Part shown: piece by piece, positions 7,565-21,120 of the stretch
How positions within the stretch are numbered: the first letter of the stretch is position 1
Layout: the number at the start of each line of letters is the position of its first letter
Notes under the pieces: model-generated
Database searches by the model: none
Told to the model about the DNA's origin: nothing
Seen by the model: only the letters and a program-made list of their open reading frames with translations
Program-made: the position numbers and the translations under genes
From: a virus
IMG/VR virus record: IMGVR_UViG_3300030108_001573
Coordinates: 1-21,120 of that record
DNA: 21,120 nucleotides
Strand: one strand, 5' to 3'

Positions 7565-7822
7565 ATGGCTAAATATAGAGGCAGAACAGTTCGTTTAAAT
7601 AAACCTTCTAGAATACGAAGAGGACAACCAGGTTTTGGTCGTAAAAAGTCGCAAGTATTTGTTAAGGACAAAGGTCGAGTAAAAAGAATTACGTTTGGTG
7701 ATCCTAATATGAGAATTAAAAAGTCAAGTCCTGCTAGAAGAAAGTCTTTTAGAGCTAGGCATAGATGTGCAACAGCAAAAGACAGAACTACTGCAAGATA
7801 TTGGTCGTGTAAGGCTTGGTAA
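7565..7822 (+). CDS. Highly basic protein with SFRARHxC...YWSCKxW motif (85 aa)
   Basis: Contains 17 Arg and 12 Lys against 3 acidic residues. The C-terminal half carries a distinctive set of phrases: FGDPNM at 44-49, ARRKSFRARHRC at 57-68 and YWSCKAW at 79-85. I recognise this combination as recurrent in phage and some giant-virus proteins of unknown function. His66, Cys68 and Cys82 could bind a metal. The start lies one base after the 23-residue peptide stops. A virion nucleic-acid-binding or head-assembly role is likely from charge and position next to head-tail genes, but is unproven. Confidence 0.8.
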   Translation: MAKYRGRTVRLNKPSRIRRGQPGFGRKKSQVFVKDKGRVKRITFGDPNMRIKKSSPARRKSFRARHRCATAKDRTTARYWSCKAW

Positions 7823-7825
7823 GAA

Positions 7826-8017
7826 ATGGCTAGAAAAAAAAGAAAAAAAAGTAGAGTAAATGAGGCAGGTAACTATACTAAGCCTACTTTAAGAAAAAGA
7901 TTATTCTATAGAATTAAGGCAGGTTCTAAAGGTGGCAGAGCAGGTCAATGGAGTGCAAGAAAAGCGCAGATGTTGGCTCGTGCTTATAAAAAAGCAGGTG
8001 GAGGATACAAGAAGTAA
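7826..8017 (+). CDS. Basic protein with GQWSARKAQ motif (63 aa)
   Basis: Has 22 Lys/Arg in 63 residues and a single acidic residue. The motifs are AGNYTKP (14-20), GSKGGRAGQWSARKAQMLA (33-51) and GGGYK (58-62). I recall the KGGxxGQWSARKAQxxA...GGGY phrase from small phage and nucleocytoplasmic large DNA virus proteins with no known function. The gene starts three bases after the previous stop and ends in a TAATG overlap with the next basic gene. It is therefore co-translated with the cluster. DNA or RNA binding is inferred. Confidence 0.78.
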   Translation: MARKKRKKSRVNEAGNYTKPTLRKRLFYRIKAGSKGGRAGQWSARKAQMLARAYKKAGGGYKK

Positions 8018-8262
8018 TGGCACTTAGAAAATCACAAAAGTCATTAAAGAAATGGACTTCTCAAAAGTGGGATTACATTAGTAAAGGTGATAAGAAAAAA
8101 CCTAGAAGAAAAAGAGGTAGATACTTACCTGCGTCTGTTAGAAAGTCAATGACAGCTTCACAAAAGGCATATGAAAATAGAAAGAAACGAGCAGCTAGTA
8201 GAAAAGGTAAACAAAGAGCTAAATACTCTAGGTCTACAAGAAGAAAGATGCGAGGTAAATAA
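8017..8262 (+). CDS. Basic protein with SLKKWTxQKW...RGRYLP motif (81 aa)
   Basis: The most basic of the cluster by count, with 33 Lys/Arg in 81 residues and 3 acidic. Motifs are SLKKWTSQKWDY (9-20), RGRYLPASV (33-41), ENRKKR (53-58) and GKQRAKYS (64-71). Similar phrases occur, from memory, in uncharacterised phage and giant-virus proteins. Both ends are TAATG overlaps with neighbours. The tail (SRSTRRKMRGK) is protamine-like. A role in compacting packaged DNA or in the prohead interior is inferred from charge and neighbours. Confidence 0.78.
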   Translation: MALRKSQKSLKKWTSQKWDYISKGDKKKPRRKRGRYLPASVRKSMTASQKAYENRKKRAASRKGKQRAKYSRSTRRKMRGK

Positions 8263-11553: not shown

Positions 11554-13771
11554 ATTTAGAGCCACAGGTGATGCCGCGCTTAAAAGAGCTGTTATTGACT
11601 TAGAAAAAGCAACTGCAGCTTTAAAAGGAGAAACATCTAGGCTTAAAGGTGTAAGTGATCAACATAACACAACTATGTTGAGGCAACAAAAAAACGCTTC
11701 AGGACTATCAAGATCATTTGCTACTTTAAGAAATAAAATGTTATTGTTTAGCTTTGCTATGTCTTTAGGTGGTAGACAGTTAATTAGGTTTACAAGAGAT
11801 GCCGCAAGAGTTGATACTATGTCAGATGCTTTTTCTAGTTTAGTTGGTGGTACGCAAAATGCAGAAATAGCTTTAGACAAACTTAAAGGTGCAACAAATA
11901 ATACTATGTCTGAGTTTGACTTGTTCCAACAAGCAAATAATGCTATGGTACTAGGTATAACTAAAAACTCTGATGAGATGGCAGTTATGTTTGACAAGGC
12001 ACAAAAACTAGGTGCAGCTTTAGGTAAAGATACAAGACAATCAGTTGAATCTCTAGTTACTGGTATTGGTCGTCAATCTAGGCTGATGTTAGATAATATT
12101 GGTATTATCGTAAAAACAGACGAAGCATATAAGGACTTTGCAGATGCTAATAATACTACAGTAGCTGCTTTATCAGATACTCAAAAAAAACAAGCATTTT
12201 TAAATGCTACTTTAGATGCCGCAGATACAAAGTTAGCCGCTTTAGGACAAAAGTTTGGCGACACAGGCGATGAAATTCTAACAAATGAACAACAATTACA
12301 AAGGATTGATGCAAGTTTAGCAAACTTTACAGATACTATAGGTAGAGCATTTATACCTGCTATAGAACCTGCAGCAGATTTAATAGTAGCATTTACAGAG
12401 GCTATTGATCCAGAAGATGTAAGGGTTTTTGTAGCTTCTATAGCTACAGGATCAGGCTCTATATTAGCTTTTAATGCAGGTACTACGATAGGAACTACTG
12501 CTGTTAATTTATATAGAGGTGGATTAGTTAAAGCGACAATTGCTATGAGAGCCTTTACTGTATCTATGCTGACAAATCCTTTTGGAATAGCCGCAGTAGC
12601 CATAGCAGGAGCTACAGCGGTAGCATTGAAACATTCAGGTGTTTTGAAAAACATGGATGATACAATGAATAAGTTAATAGGAACTTCTAAAGAATTAACT
12701 GGAGAGTTTAATAAAGATGTATTTGTTAAAGCTTCAGAAAATGCAGTTAAAATGGGTATGGCTTTAGAAAAACTTGAACTTTCAAACAAAAAGCTATCTG
12801 ACAATGAAAAGAATAGAATTTTATTAGAAAAAGAACATGAATTATTATTAAATCAACAGTTATTTATACAAAAAGCCTTAGGCGAGGATACTCAAGAATA
12901 TTCAGATATTTTGTTCAAACTTATAGAAAATGAAACAAGGAGAAATGAATTAGCTCAAAAAATAGCAAAAGATACAGAAAAAGAAACAGAAGCAACAAAG
13001 AAAAAGAACGATGCAAAAAAAGATGCAAATAAAAAACTATTAGAAGAAATAGAACTATTACAAGCAAGAAAAGATAATTTTGGTGATGAATTAGGTTTTT
13101 TACAAGCTGAAATTGATATTATGCAAAAAAAAGCAGATGCTCTTGGAGATACTAATGAAGCTAAAAAATTACAATTAGAAATTGATAATAAACAATTAGA
13201 ATTAGATAAAAAAAGAAGTGAGCGTATAATAGAAGAAACTATTCAAACAAAGTTATTGGCAAGTTCAATAGAGTCTATGTCAAGTGCATTGGCAAACGCA
13301 GCTTTAAATGGTGATCATATGGGTAGACAAATAGAAAAAGCGTTAAAAAGAATTGCAGCACAAATATTAGCTAAGGCAGGTGTGTTTGCTTTGCTAAATG
13401 TTCTTTTCCCTGGAACTGTAGCTGCAGCAGGTTTGAAAGGTGTAAATCCTTTTGCATTTGCATTAGGTTTAGATAAAGCTCATACTGGTGGTTTTATTAA
13501 AGATAACAAAGTACAAAAGTTTGCTACAGGCGGAGTTGTTCAAGGTGAGGATAACGTACCTATTCTTGCACAAAATGGCGAGTTTGTTATGAGTAGAAAT
13601 GCAGTAGAGTCTGTAGGTATAGAAACTATGAATAGAATCAATCAAACTGGTTCGGCAGGTGTTACTGTTAATATATCAGGCAACGTGATGTCGCAGGATT
13701 TTGTAGAAGGAGAACTTGCAGAGAGAATAAAAGAAGCAGTACGCAAAGGCTCTAACTTTGGAATGTCATGA
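11528..13771 (+). CDS. Tail tape measure protein
   Basis: Long, Ala-rich helical protein that sets tail length and helps DNA entry. The N-terminal region (1-60) is coiled (AALKRAVIDLEKATAALKGE). Hydrophobic segments lie at about 69-80, 335-360 and 615-650, and a strong Glu/Lys coiled coil spans about 395-575. The C-terminus has the family phrase FATGG, GEDNVPILAQNGEFVMSRNA and VNISGN at about 660-725. By the known rule of about 0.15 nm per residue, 747 residues predict a tail near 110 nm. No peptidase or lytic domain is evident. The start overlaps the chaperone end by 26 bases; the stop overlaps the next ATG as ATGA. Confidence 0.92.
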   Translation: MSEQSIVVKFRATGDAALKRAVIDLEKATAALKGETSRLKGVSDQHNTTMLRQQKNASGLSRSFATLRNKMLLFSFAMSLGGRQLIRFTRDAARVDTMSDAFSSLVGGTQNAEIALDKLKGATNNTMSEFDLFQQANNAMVLGITKNSDEMAVMFDKAQKLGAALGKDTRQSVESLVTGIGRQSRLMLDNIGIIVKTDEAYKDFADANNTTVAALSDTQKKQAFLNATLDAADTKLAALGQKFGDTGDEILTNEQQLQRIDASLANFTDTIGRAFIPAIEPAADLIVAFTEAIDPEDVRVFVASIATGSGSILAFNAGTTIGTTAVNLYRGGLVKATIAMRAFTVSMLTNPFGIAAVAIAGATAVALKHSGVLKNMDDTMNKLIGTSKELTGEFNKDVFVKASENAVKMGMALEKLELSNKKLSDNEKNRILLEKEHELLLNQQLFIQKALGEDTQEYSDILFKLIENETRRNELAQKIAKDTEKETEATKKKNDAKKDANKKLLEEIELLQARKDNFGDELGFLQAEIDIMQKKADALGDTNEAKKLQLEIDNKQLELDKKRSERIIEETIQTKLLASSIESMSSALANAALNGDHMGRQIEKALKRIAAQILAKAGVFALLNVLFPGTVAAAGLKGVNPFAFALGLDKAHTGGFIKDNKVQKFATGGVVQGEDNVPILAQNGEFVMSRNAVESVGIETMNRINQTGSAGVTVNISGNVMSQDFVEGELAERIKEAVRKGSNFGMS

Positions 13772-16700
13772 TAAATAACGAAAAATTTAACTTAGCTACA
13801 GGTGGCAATACTTACAATGTAGTACCTTTAGTTATTATAGTATCTAATTCAGGCTTAGTGGCTAACTATTTTTCAACGCAACCTACAAATATAGGCTTGG
13901 CAGCGTTTGATCCTCTTAGTTTCGATCCATTACTTTTAAATGTATCTTCTATAAAAGAGTCGGTAGATGTTGAAACTCGTAAATATAAAACATCATCTGT
14001 TACTATTACTCTTTCTAATGCTAAATATCTTGGTAGACGTTTAAGTGATAGCTATACGGACATAATAAATGGTGATGTAGAAATTTATTTTAAAACACAA
14101 AACATAACTGACCTTACACGAGCTATTTTAGTTTATAAAGGCACAGTCAGAAGAATATCACAAACTGACACAACCCTTACTTTAAGCGTAGAAGATGCTT
14201 CAGAACAAAAAGTACATAAAGACATCCCAGAGAGTATAACTAACGAAACAGATTTTAAGTCTAAATTTAAAAATAAACCTTTTCCTATGGTTATAGGCAA
14301 AGTTGATAGATCGCCTTGTATAACTTCATTTGGTACGACAGGAGAATATGATATAGATGACGATGGTGATTTAGACGAATATGATTTTGTAAGAGAAGTT
14401 TTTGCTGACAGAAAGGAATTGGCAAAATTAATACCTGAAAATTTAAAAGTTGGAAATAATAAAATTGGCGTTACTTCATTATATGCCGAAGTAGATGATG
14501 ACTATGTTGGTATTTATCCTACTACTCAAATAGACTTTGAATCTGGTTTAGGTGAAGGATTTTTAAATTATTCAACTTTAGTAACTAATAATGGTTTTAC
14601 TTTTTTAAATTTATTTAATGAAGAGCCTGAAGATGAAAATGAAGATGATAAAATTACTATAGAAGAGTTGGCAAAAAATGATACTGCTGCAAATAGAGGT
14701 AGAGTTTTAGTAGAAAGAAAAGAAAATAAAATAGAAAGAGTTATTCAAACTAAAGGACTAGATAGCAATTTTATCTTTAAAAGTGGAATAGTACAAGGCG
14801 ATGAATTTATAGAAGATTCTAATTTGAATTTTAACAGAATAAATGATGGGAATCCAAATAGTTGCGTACAAATAGAAGGCGACTACAAAATGCAAGAACG
14901 TATAACTAATGGATTTAAATATTTAGATTACAGTTTTGCCTATTTAAAATTTCATTTTGATTCATTACCATCTGGAGTTACTGTAAATATAAATGATGCT
15001 TCAACATGGTCAAGATATATAGCAAAAATACAAATTTTAGACAAGACTCTGCATAATATTCCTTTTGATAATCCTGATATGCCTTTGCAAATGCCATTAG
15101 TAAGTGTATTCACTCAAGAAAATAATTTTGGAGGACAGCTAGATGCAAAGCCTTTTGCTGTTATTGAACCTAAAAGTACATTAATACATCATGATCATAC
15201 TAGAATGAATGTCGTAGAAGATATAGTTTACAATGATGACGATTTCCCTGTTCCTGCAAAAGTTATAAAACCTCCTGAAGATGAAAATAGTCAAGAGGAT
15301 GGTAGATTGCATATTTTTGCAACAAGTCAATCTGAATACAATAGTTATGATGGTAATAGTCCATTAGGAAGAATACATCCAATTTTAGTGCCTAATGAAT
15401 CTAATTTTTATTGTCTTGGATTACCAAAAATTGCAAGAGAAGGACTTTATCGTGAGGAAGATGATAATGGAAATGTAACTCTCCACTATCCAAATATAGA
15501 TATTCCTGCCAAAATAAGAATATTTGAATCATCTATGTGGGCGATGGGAACTTTAGACAACTTACTGCAAAAGAATTTTTATGCAAATGTATGGGGTAGA
15601 CCTACAGGTAATTTAGGTATATATAATTTACAATTAGTTCCTGATATTGGACAGTCTACAAATGAAATAGAAGAAAAAGCGACAGGACAACTCTTGAAGT
15701 ATTTGTTTGATAATAATCCTTTTGTAGTTATAGATGCAAATACAATATATAACATATTAAAAGATAATTTACAAGTCTATCCTACGCAAATAATAGTAGA
15801 AGAGCAAGTTTCAACTGATCCTAATAATCCGTTTGGTGGAGTAACAATAGATATTACTGACTGGCAAATAGTTAGAACAATAAATAGTAATGAAATATCA
15901 TTACAATTTAGATGTGATGGAATTGTTACAAGCTATTCTAATGAGGAGGAAGAAGGAAGTGAACCTACAATACCAAATGGTGATGTTAAAGTTGTATTAT
16001 CAGATGGACAAGAATATACTTTGCAATCTGAATATAGTGGTTATTATGAATTTGCTACATTTGATATAATACCTATTGAAAAAGCAGGTGAGATAGTAAA
16101 ACACATTTTAGAAGAAGAGTGTAAGTATGATGGAGAATTTAATGAAAATGAATTAAATGCTATAGAACAGATACATAGTGGATGGAATTTTGCTTTTACG
16201 CAGAACAAACTAATAAGTTCCAAAAAATTAATAGAAGATTTTTCAAGATCGACTAAGTCTTTTCCTAGATTTAGAGCTGATGGTACTTTTGGTTGGAATG
16301 TAGTTAAAGATACTTACTCAGACGATGATATAGACTTAATTGTAGACGAATCAGATATTATTAACTATAGATATGACAGAACAAAATTAGAAGATGTAAA
16401 AACCAAGGTAAAGGTGCTGTTTAACATTGACTATGCTAAAGGTAATCATTTATTTTCTACGGATGATATTCTAGCGACAGACTATGTTAATACTAGCATA
16501 TATCAGTATTATGGTTTAGCAACTGACGACTCAGACTCTACTTTAAACTTTGAAACTGACTATATTAGAGATAGATACACAGCGGAGCAGTTGCGTAATT
16601 GGTTACTTACTTGGAATATGAATCAAAAGAATTTAATAAGTCTTACGTTACCTATTAAGTATATTAAGTTAGAAGTTGGTGATGTCGTTGCTTTAGACAA

Positions 16701-17097
16701 GGAAATACAAGGCACAAAGATATTTGGTGAAACCTATACACAAACATCAATTACTAGAAATGGACAAGAAATATATCCATATTTTATGGTATATGAAACT
16801 AACAAAAATTTAGAAAAGATAGATATAAAACTAATACAACTACACAACCTTGATATTAATAGTCTTGGAACGGTTGAAGAGCAAGAAGCACAACAAGAGG
16901 AATCTAATGTTGTATTACCAACAGGCGATGTTAATGGCGATGGCAATACTGATGTAGTAGATATAGTTAATGTTATTAGTTTTGTTTTAGGAGCAAAGCA
17001 ACCTACAGATGAAGAGTTTTTTCAAGCAGATATAAATCAAGATGGAAACGTAGATGTATTGGATATAGTTGCTTTAGTAAATATAATATTAGGATAA
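13768..17097 (+). CDS. Tail hub/tip protein with C-terminal dockerin (1109 aa)
   Basis: Large protein immediately after the tape measure, the place of distal-tail, hub or receptor-binding tip proteins. Residues about 60-180 are beta-rich (SVTITLSNAKYLGRR). Residues about 930-1040 (LRNWLLTWNMNQKNLISLTL, LEVGDVVALDK, YPYFMVYETNKN) resemble the hub region of gpJ-like proteins. Residues 1051-1109 form a complete type-I-like dockerin: two Ca-binding loops, DVNGDGNTDVVD (1054-1065) and DINQDGNVDVLD (1088-1099), each followed by a hydrophobic helix. A third EF-hand-like loop, DIDDDGDLDEYD, sits at 195-206. The dockerin may stabilise the protein with calcium or bind a partner. The hub role is inferred; the dockerin is read directly. 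Confidence 0.8.
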   Translation: MINNEKFNLATGGNTYNVVPLVIIVSNSGLVANYFSTQPTNIGLAAFDPLSFDPLLLNVSSIKESVDVETRKYKTSSVTITLSNAKYLGRRLSDSYTDIINGDVEIYFKTQNITDLTRAILVYKGTVRRISQTDTTLTLSVEDASEQKVHKDIPESITNETDFKSKFKNKPFPMVIGKVDRSPCITSFGTTGEYDIDDDGDLDEYDFVREVFADRKELAKLIPENLKVGNNKIGVTSLYAEVDDDYVGIYPTTQIDFESGLGEGFLNYSTLVTNNGFTFLNLFNEEPEDENEDDKITIEELAKNDTAANRGRVLVERKENKIERVIQTKGLDSNFIFKSGIVQGDEFIEDSNLNFNRINDGNPNSCVQIEGDYKMQERITNGFKYLDYSFAYLKFHFDSLPSGVTVNINDASTWSRYIAKIQILDKTLHNIPFDNPDMPLQMPLVSVFTQENNFGGQLDAKPFAVIEPKSTLIHHDHTRMNVVEDIVYNDDDFPVPAKVIKPPEDENSQEDGRLHIFATSQSEYNSYDGNSPLGRIHPILVPNESNFYCLGLPKIAREGLYREEDDNGNVTLHYPNIDIPAKIRIFESSMWAMGTLDNLLQKNFYANVWGRPTGNLGIYNLQLVPDIGQSTNEIEEKATGQLLKYLFDNNPFVVIDANTIYNILKDNLQVYPTQIIVEEQVSTDPNNPFGGVTIDITDWQIVRTINSNEISLQFRCDGIVTSYSNEEEEGSEPTIPNGDVKVVLSDGQEYTLQSEYSGYYEFATFDIIPIEKAGEIVKHILEEECKYDGEFNENELNAIEQIHSGWNFAFTQNKLISSKKLIEDFSRSTKSFPRFRADGTFGWNVVKDTYSDDDIDLIVDESDIINYRYDRTKLEDVKTKVKVLFNIDYAKGNHLFSTDDILATDYVNTSIYQYYGLATDDSDSTLNFETDYIRDRYTAEQLRNWLLTWNMNQKNLISLTLPIKYIKLEVGDVVALDKEIQGTKIFGETYTQTSITRNGQEIYPYFMVYETNKNLEKIDIKLIQLHNLDINSLGTVEEQEAQQEESNVVLPTGDVNGDGNTDVVDIVNVISFVLGAKQPTDEEFFQADINQDGNVDVLDIVALVNIILG
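16918..17094 (+). other. Dockerin domain coding segment (two Ca-binding repeats)
   Basis: Encodes residues 1051-1109 of the tail hub protein. Each repeat supplies Asp/Asn at loop positions 1, 3, 5, 9 and 12 and Gly at 6, followed by a helix ending in Leu-Gly (NVISFVLG and ALVNIILG). Spacing between loops is the 34 residues expected for a duplicated dockerin. It is the extreme C-terminus and is preceded by a Glu/Gln-rich linker. Confidence 0.85.
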
Positions 17098-20566: not shown

Positions 20567-20750
20567 CTGATTCTCCTAATGTTTTGTTAAACTTCATTAT
20601 TACATCATTTAATTCACCATCACTTAAATTATTTATTTTATAATGTGGCGAATCATTCTGTACTTCTAGTTGATGTAGTGGTTTGCTTTTGTGATATAAG
20701 CCTAAATTTGCCCATATAAGGAACTTTTTTATTATACTTAGAGTGAACAT
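20538..20750 (-). CDS. Small hypothetical protein (70 aa)
   Basis: I do not recognise this protein. The start is well supported by AGGAG upstream of the ATG (TAGGAGAATACCATG on the minus strand). The N-terminal 20 residues are hydrophobic and basic (MFTLSIIKKFLIWANLGLYH), possibly an amphipathic or membrane-touching helix. The rest is polar and acidic (LSDGELNDVIMKFNKTLGE). It overlaps the 57-residue gene upstream by 13 bases and the nuclease downstream by 29. It is part of the leftward operon; no function can be given. Confidence 0.65.
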   Translation of the reverse strand: MFTLSIIKKFLIWANLGLYHKSKPLHQLEVQNDSPHYKINNLSDGELNDVIMKFNKTLGESDAEQIQREG

Positions 20751-20911
20751 GGTATTCTCCTAACTCTTAGGTGTAAAAGCCTTGTTTTTAAAATGTCTAT
20801 CATATCTCTTGTAATTTCTACATTATAGTCAGTTATCTTGCCTAGATTCTTCTCATAATGCTTTATCATCTTTTCGTATGTTTCTATTACGACATGGTTT
20901 TTTTCTTTCAT
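20738..20911 (-). CDS. Small helical hypothetical protein (57 aa), first gene of leftward operon
   Basis: Starts at the minus-strand ATG at 20911, four bases after GAGGA (20916-20920). The product is a charged helix-former (KEKNHVVIETYEKMIKHYEK, then KITDYNVEITRDMIDILKTR) with a basic end, probably a short coiled coil. It reads through the ribosome binding site of the next gene and stops 13 bases inside it, consistent with coupling. The frame stays open for 24 codons upstream (to TAG at 20984-20986) with protein-like content but no ATG, GTG or TTG. Function unknown. Confidence 0.6.
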   Translation of the reverse strand: MKEKNHVVIETYEKMIKHYEKNLGKITDYNVEITRDMIDILKTRLLHLRVRRIPCSL

Positions 20912-20915
20912 TATT

Positions 20916-20920
20916 TCCTC
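20916..20920 (-). promoter_or_regulatory. Ribosome binding site of the 57-aa gene
   Basis: GAGGA on the minus strand before the ATG at 20911. The stop codon (TAG) of a possible 12-residue leader peptide ends exactly at its first base, 20920. Confidence 0.55.
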
Positions 20921-20958
20921 TACTTTATACGGACTGATGCGGAAGGCAACATATACAT
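20920..20958 (-). CDS. Possible 12-aa leader peptide
   Basis: Minus-strand ATG at 20958 with AGGAG at 20969-20973 upstream (ten-base spacer) encodes MYMLPSASVRIK and stops at TAG, eight bases before the ATG of the 57-residue gene. Translation of this peptide would pass through the paired arms 20938-20945 and 20930-20936. It may be chance, since other frames here are also open. Confidence 0.3.
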   Translation of the reverse strand: MYMLPSASVRIK

Positions 20959-21034
20959 ATGGATTTGACTCCTCAATATAGTTCTATACACTTCCGCACT
21001 ATCAAGTAGTTACCAACGACTGACGAACAGTCCG
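20930..21034 (-). promoter_or_regulatory. Structured leader with alternative pairings upstream of the leftward operon
   Basis: On the minus strand, CGGACTG (21034-21028) can pair with CAGTCCG (20936-20930), and TGCGGAAG (20998-20991) with CTTCCGCA (20945-20938). The two downstream arms are separated by one base, so the stems stack in nested order. The same GACTG can instead form a local hairpin with CAGTC (21022-21018) around loop TTCGT, so the two folds exclude each other. The region is more GC-rich than its surroundings. It lies just ahead of the first leftward gene and could be a riboswitch-like or attenuator leader, an operator, or part of an origin. I see no match to a known riboswitch class. 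Confidence 0.45.
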
Positions 21035-21104
21035 CTTTGTTATGTTTGGAGTTTTTATCCTGCAACTTCCAGCCAGTAAATTTTGAAAATGAGCCAAGCC
21101 ACAT
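20973..21104 (-). CDS. Doubtful 43-aa reading frame, possibly the 5' half of a frameshifted gene
   Basis: Minus-strand ATG at 21104 with only a weak AGG upstream; an in-frame TGA precedes it directly. It encodes a protein-like sequence (GSFSKFTGWKLQDKNSKHNK, later VVGNYLIVRKCIELY) and ends at TGA 20973-20975. A +1 step at TAT-TGA would continue as EESNPYVYVAFRISPYKVEE and run into the 57-residue gene, giving 121 residues. It overlaps the structured leader, so both readings may not be true. The rest of 20912-21120 holds no other feature that I can support. Confidence 0.25.
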   Translation of the reverse strand: MWLGSFSKFTGWKLQDKNSKHNKADCSSVVGNYLIVRKCIELY

Positions 21105-21120
21105 TCAAACCTGACTCATT

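Follow-up and report, generated by a model that had tools for sequence, protein, structure and literature searches.

Ahead of the leftward early operon of this virus, close to the contig end, two helices can pair in nested order, and the locus raises the question of whether this pairing is real, to what kind of RNA it belongs and what that RNA might do. The window (the whole stretch analysed, 21,120 bases, which is the complete IMG/VR virus record) combines rightward structural genes with a leftward early operon that includes NinB-like, HNH, C5 methyltransferase and Hjc-like genes. The first gene 3' of the leader encodes 57 aa (20738-20911, minus strand, start ATG at 20911) and recurs in the related loci L002 and L016; a 48-codon portion of the gene matched nothing in Pfam or PHROGs scans. 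Elsewhere in the window, three successive small and very basic proteins (63-85 aa, K/R-rich) are encoded amid the structural genes at 7565-8262, and a 1109-aa tail-region protein (13768-17097) carries a C-terminal dockerin type I domain (Pfam E-value 7.9e-9), which is unusual for a phage tail protein.

The nested pairing, first proposed from the letters of the window alone, is borne out, as both helices dominate the predicted fold of the minus strand. The outer helix joins GCGGACTG (21028-21035) to CAGTCCGT (20929-20936) with pair probabilities of 0.86-0.90, the inner helix joins TGCGGAAG (20991-20998) to CTTCCGCA (20938-20945) with probabilities of 0.97-1.0, and the 3' end of this domain falls ~20 nt short of the first gene. 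The 161-nt leader of the window folds with a predicted energy of -36.9 kcal/mol (z-score -2.84, equalled by 3 of 200 shuffles), and a nested arrangement this strong, defined as two helices with adjacent 3' arms and a 5' gap of 8-75 nt, was equalled in none of 3000 dinucleotide shuffles.

Using the Hjc-like neighbour as a search handle gave nine loci, five of them with a nearly identical leader. L007, whose Hjc protein is 88% identical, has a diverged leader with an outer helix GTAGGGAA/TTCCCTAC and an inner helix GGAGAGG/CCTCTCC, and its domain folds like that of the window (outer pairs at least 0.73, inner pairs ~1.0). The test set for this pairing was whether the arms vary without compensation in relatives, and the outcome was the opposite: L007 swaps both helices with compensation, six of the eight pairs in each helix (12/16) being altered on both sides and still pairing, in what is a single comparison of two lineages whose changes count as one linked set. 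The L007/L028 arrangement was equalled by 2 of 3000 dinucleotide shuffles. Between the two 5' arms, the stretch UUGGUAACUAC (21006-21016, minus strand) is identical in the window, L002, L005, L010 and L007, with diverging flanks. Across 20 leader loci, the nested test was strong in the window, L034, L028, L014 and L025 (0/300 shuffles each), weaker in L013, L018 and L020, and non-significant or absent in the remaining 12; the nested arrangement is therefore no universal feature of these leaders. The solutions for L014 and L025 consist of helices other than those of the window, and the outer helix of L028 is missing from the minimum-energy structure of a longer fold and present in the leader-limited one.

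The coordinates given in the sequence-only reading do hold the nested helices; the component common to the different phages lies just outside them, as a 30-mer core (ACUGGCUGGAAGUUGCAGgAUAAAAACUCC) at 21077-21048 on the minus strand, directly upstream of the nested domain and the same in L007 except for one G/T position. A 24-base pattern located this 30-mer in 25 contigs, and a degenerate motif scan (fixed spacing, blind to split cores) returned the same 25; each of 26 records, window included, holds one copy of the core. In one group an HNH gene lies ahead of the element, and a search with this gene retrieved 25 loci, including three (L094, L096 and L097) in which the same loop and tail are separated by 18-37 extra bases. 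A variable-linker pattern retrieved 52 IMG/VR stretches, of which 50 were kept, giving together with the window (short form, 21048-21077, minus strand) 24 distinct cores; L123 and L125 (26 bits) were dropped as likely chance matches in coding sequence. Most core contigs come from one numeric metagenome series, so that independent lineages number fewer than the contigs themselves. A search of 75 sources with a covariance model of the core added no member, exact core matches were absent from the GTDB bacterial and archaeal genomes searched, and three GTDB split-pattern matches were taken as chance (22.6-25.3 bits vs. at least 41.8 for members). Neither the motif nor one leader used as query had a convincing match among phage and plasmid records, and a match in phage HK639 (E-value 4), on the other strand and outside the annotated nearby putL-like RNA, was likewise taken as chance. 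All these searches required the exact loop, and cores with other loops would escape them.

Stem P1 of the core closes an 11-nt loop, and a variable linker leads on to a tail complementary to this loop. In the window (all minus strand), P1 pairs CUG (21076-21074) with CAG (21062-21060), the loop GCUGGAAGUUG spans 21063-21073 and is kept in every member found, and the A-rich tail AUAAAAACUCC spans 21048-21058. The two outer P1 pairs covary among the 24 distinct cores (AU/GC/CG/UA and CG/GC/UA; e.g., GGUG/CACC in L094 in place of CCUG/CAGG), 98.3% of cells are paired and the covariation score was reached by 0 of 500 shuffles, with the outermost pair missing from 4 of the 24 cores, including that of the window. 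A second helix, P2 (21048-21070), would join GGA(A)GUU in the loop (21070-21064, A bulged) to AACUCC in the tail (21053-21048): six pairs are possible in 24/24 distinct cores, one being G-C or G-U (12 each, the tail reading AACUCC or AACUCU) and the others invariant. The search pattern fixed the middle of the motif, whose invariance is therefore partly by construction, and left free the outer P1 bases, the linker and all beyond the tail. We infer that loop and tail form an H-type pseudoknot, which these cores are consistent with and covariation leaves unproven. Because relatives split the core with hairpins and the flanking stem covaries, the element as a whole (21077-20929, minus strand) is almost certainly a structured RNA rather than a promoter.

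Around this core, the periphery is variable. All 19 distinct long cores carry a linker hairpin of at least 4 bp, with 13 distinct stems and a recurrent loop GGAUAAUAAAG in 10 of the 19. In many members a further helix, P0, encloses the core and ends ahead of the next ribosome-binding site: it was detected at P <= 0.05 (60 shuffles) in 17 of 23 distinct rows (21 long cores plus L012 and L032) and not in the other 6, and its 3' strand begins 1-6 nt past the tail, with a ribosome-binding site soon after in most cases. In 16 hand-picked members (near-duplicates, one bulged helix and two members without P0 being left out), P0 includes one non-standard pair overall and all 8 innermost pairs vary in type. 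The window group showed no P0 of the long-form kind (window shuffle P 0.85), its layout being an upstream hairpin, the short core and the nested 3' domain. The upstream hairpin is terminator-like (AATGAGTCA/TGGCTCATT, 21088-21120, minus strand), lies directly upstream of the core, is cut by the contig end and is longer in L002. Other short-core phages have strong hairpins of unrelated sequence at the position of the 3' domain, and in leaders without a strong 3' hairpin ACTCT replaces ACTCC, these members (L012, L032) being of the P0 type. Overall, structure is stronger in the leaders than in sequence 500 nt beyond them (mean z-score -3.10, n = 16, vs. -0.70, n = 13; p-value 1e-4). An idea that GGAG/GAGG is displayed in apical loops was abandoned (3 of 17 leaders vs. 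0.56 expected, p-value 0.016, one of the three spurious). Separately, L019, L024, L027, L031, L017 and L111 have, upstream of the core, a covarying stem within a domain that AUUCGU/ACGAAU closes (AUUCAU/AUGAAU in L017), and L022, L122 and L131 share another element, GAGAGAGUUACGGCUAAAACCACCA ... CAAGCGUGGUCUCUCUC, on one or the other side of the core.

The gene context is similarly diverse. Core-bearing phages have at least two unrelated sets of structural genes, and in nearly every case the core sits between early genes and on the strand that encodes them. Of the 45 members with enough flank, 42 have a same-strand ribosome-binding site and open ATG no more than 320 nt away. No fixed downstream gene was found, the following genes being very different, nor any consistent gene association that would hint at a ligand. 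About half of the records have small helix-turn-helix (HTH) genes near the motif, and G002, G007, G009, G014, G017, G021 and others encode small HTH proteins (41-52 aa) and small zinc-ribbon proteins (51-77 aa) close to the element; neither kind is a universal partner.

Relatives with the same upstream HNH gene and no core also exist. In L086 the HNH gene leads directly to the next gene, without a leader at the junction, and L086 and other core-less relatives carry another conserved structured module at the HNH-gene junction or one gene on, made of a GGUAAC hairpin, CUCGUCGAAAAGAG, a variable hairpin and UGACUCGAAAGGAG ahead of the next ATG. This sister module (L081-L092, after the HNH gene, e.g., L092:1975-2200) includes AGCAGURGAGAGCUGUUAGCGUGAGCGCA ahead of the GGUAAC hairpin, gave no Rfam match, and pieces of it recur in the core-bearing leaders L011 and L035. 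The core is thus not always needed, because core-less relatives such as L086 carry a different structured element, and sister phages may use two different structured RNAs at one junction for one purpose.

The initial view that a structured leader outside the known classes precedes the leftward operon holds against Rfam, in which no family matched. Rfam 15 at the gathering score gave no match in the window or in sets of 10 and 12 sources, and three element regions searched at E-values up to 5-10 gave two chance matches only, far below gathering; the core strings had no occurrence or description in the literature searched, a limited collection. PreQ1-I riboswitches are H-type pseudoknots in which a hairpin loop pairs with an A-rich 3' tail, and the core resembles them in having, just ahead of a gene, a small hairpin with an A-rich 3' tail complementary to its loop. 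However, the loop and tail sequences of the core deviate from the preQ1-I consensus, no preQ1 family matched, and the core has linker hairpins and no queuosine genes that we noticed downstream. In the T4 gene 32 leader, an H-type pseudoknot 5' of the ribosome-binding site serves as a protein-binding nucleus, and the inferred fold of the core likewise puts such a pseudoknot ahead of a phage gene, whereas the genes downstream of our core are diverse, with no recognised single-strand-binding protein adjoining. Glutamine riboswitches (glnA/Downstream-peptide) are, like the core, structured leader RNAs carried by marine phages, and one is described for methylophage Melnitz and related phages in PMC9004378; their core differs, no linked tmRNA or glutamine gene was seen here, and neither Rfam family (glnA, Downstream-peptide) matched the element. 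The element is nearest to preQ1-I in topology, and to the glutamine riboswitch and the HK022 put RNA in setting, and on the tests run it is a member of none of them.

Whether the element is a new leader RNA acting in cis in phage early operons, of which the window carries the short-core version, is in our estimate evenly poised, and factor-dependent regulation in cis, our top-rated specific mechanism, stands at or slightly under that mark. In this mechanism, the loop and tail would fold into the pseudoknot and offer a platform to which some factor shared by every host of these phages could bind, be it a small molecule or a protein of host or phage, and the folded leader would set the expression level of the downstream early operon. 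P0 in most long-core relatives, or the hairpin domain in the window type, would be the changeable part that places the platform next to the following ribosome-binding site. The diversity of the following genes, the mid-operon position, the coding-strand orientation and the nearness of a ribosome-binding site argue against a metabolite switch for one pathway and for a general control point, be it a leader that binds a factor, an antiterminator RNA or an element for processing.

Among the alternatives to factor-dependent regulation, a cis-acting processive antiterminator (HK022 put or EAR-like), in which the nascent RNA would bind RNA polymerase and allow read-through of the operon, is unlikely and yet survives best. 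The mid-operon position, single copy, lack of gene specificity and free ribosome-binding site all fit, and a strong intrinsic terminator lies between core and next gene in L022/G012. The put RNA of HK022 is, like our element, a structured phage leader RNA (~70 nt) near the start of an early operon, and according to PMC9378689 it acts by itself, as structured nascent RNA, on RNA polymerase, binding the zinc-binding domain of the beta' subunit through two stem-loops. In contrast, the part common to our leaders is the P1 hairpin plus tail, a pseudoknot-like core (the word pseudoknot occurs 0 times in that paper), with two tandem hairpins in some leaders, of unrelated sequence. Moreover, 19 records hold two intrinsic terminators downstream of the core (0.5 expected) and several upstream, and this rarity of downstream terminators weakens the case for antitermination, although Rho-dependent sites would not show.

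We consider it quite improbable that the element is a self-cleaving ribozyme or a processing signal cutting the polycistronic early mRNA. Typical small ribozymes combine a compact invariant core with a pseudoknot and peripheral helices that vary; the element, intergenic and within an operon, shows the same traits, the pseudoknot as a likely one. Against this, no Rfam ribozyme family matched. A structure acting at the DNA level (a single-strand origin, recombination or packaging site) is very improbable: one copy per record and strong hairpins would suit it, and covariation alone cannot separate RNA from single-stranded DNA, but the coding-strand orientation just ahead of a ribosome-binding site (the 42 of 45 members above), the G-C/G-U exchange in P2 and the existence of core-less phages all speak against it.

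Fainter still is the idea of a conserved phage promoter (middle or sigma54-like -24/-12) with an ordinary structured 5' UTR, the 30-mer then being DNA recognised by a sigma factor or a small HTH protein. It draws on the exact conservation of 24-30 nt, single-copy and always intergenic, on the near-palindrome CTGgAAgTTgCAG, on the small HTH genes near about half of the motifs and on the terminator-like hairpin directly upstream. Relatives nevertheless insert hairpins of 18-37 nt between TTGCAxx and AAAAACTC, with flanks that covary as a stem, a pattern that a promoter leaves unaccounted for, and whereas sigma54 promoters have GG and GC elements with 10 bp between them, all cores read GG-N9-GC, one base short. 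The promoter reading of the 30-mer was dropped as largely refuted by the relatives with split cores.

The sequence-only reading had proposed a switch, in which a 12-residue leader peptide would control the change between the nested helices and a mutually exclusive local hairpin. The peptide's 12-codon ORF (MYMLPSASVRIK, 20920-20958, minus strand) is present in the window, has its own AGGAG and passes through the 3' arms, and holding these arms open alters the predicted fold; it is not conserved, having 16 codons in L005/L010, where its stop overlaps the next ATG, and being absent from L007. The local hairpin (GACTG-TTCGT-CAGTC, 21018-21032, minus strand) is likewise there in the sequence as a minor alternative (pair probability <0.09, 2.4 kcal/mol worse than the dominant fold), kept with one wobble in L005/L010 and with no equivalent seen in L007. 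The ribosome-binding site of the first gene, the supposed target (AGAGG at 20921), is mostly unpaired (0.78-0.96) and therefore not hidden by the predicted fold, so that no switch is visible in the window. With peptide and hairpin absent from L007 and the site unsequestered, a leader-peptide or ribosome-binding-site switch is without comparative support, and we rate peptide-controlled switching the least probable of all these readings.

For the phages concerned, we tentatively propose, at somewhat less than even confidence, that the element represents a new class of regulatory RNA in phages, an aptamer or ribozyme folded as a pseudoknot around an invariant loop-tail core. Such an RNA, whose core occurs in unrelated phages and was not found in the GTDB genomes searched, would sense one common signal and set the timing for the later genes of the early operon. 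Few riboswitches and antiterminator RNAs encoded by phages are known, and a core conserved across unrelated uncultured phages without an Rfam match would constitute a new RNA class. Such a core would offer a handle on the timing of gene expression in these phages, and its covariation makes the core structure testable now.
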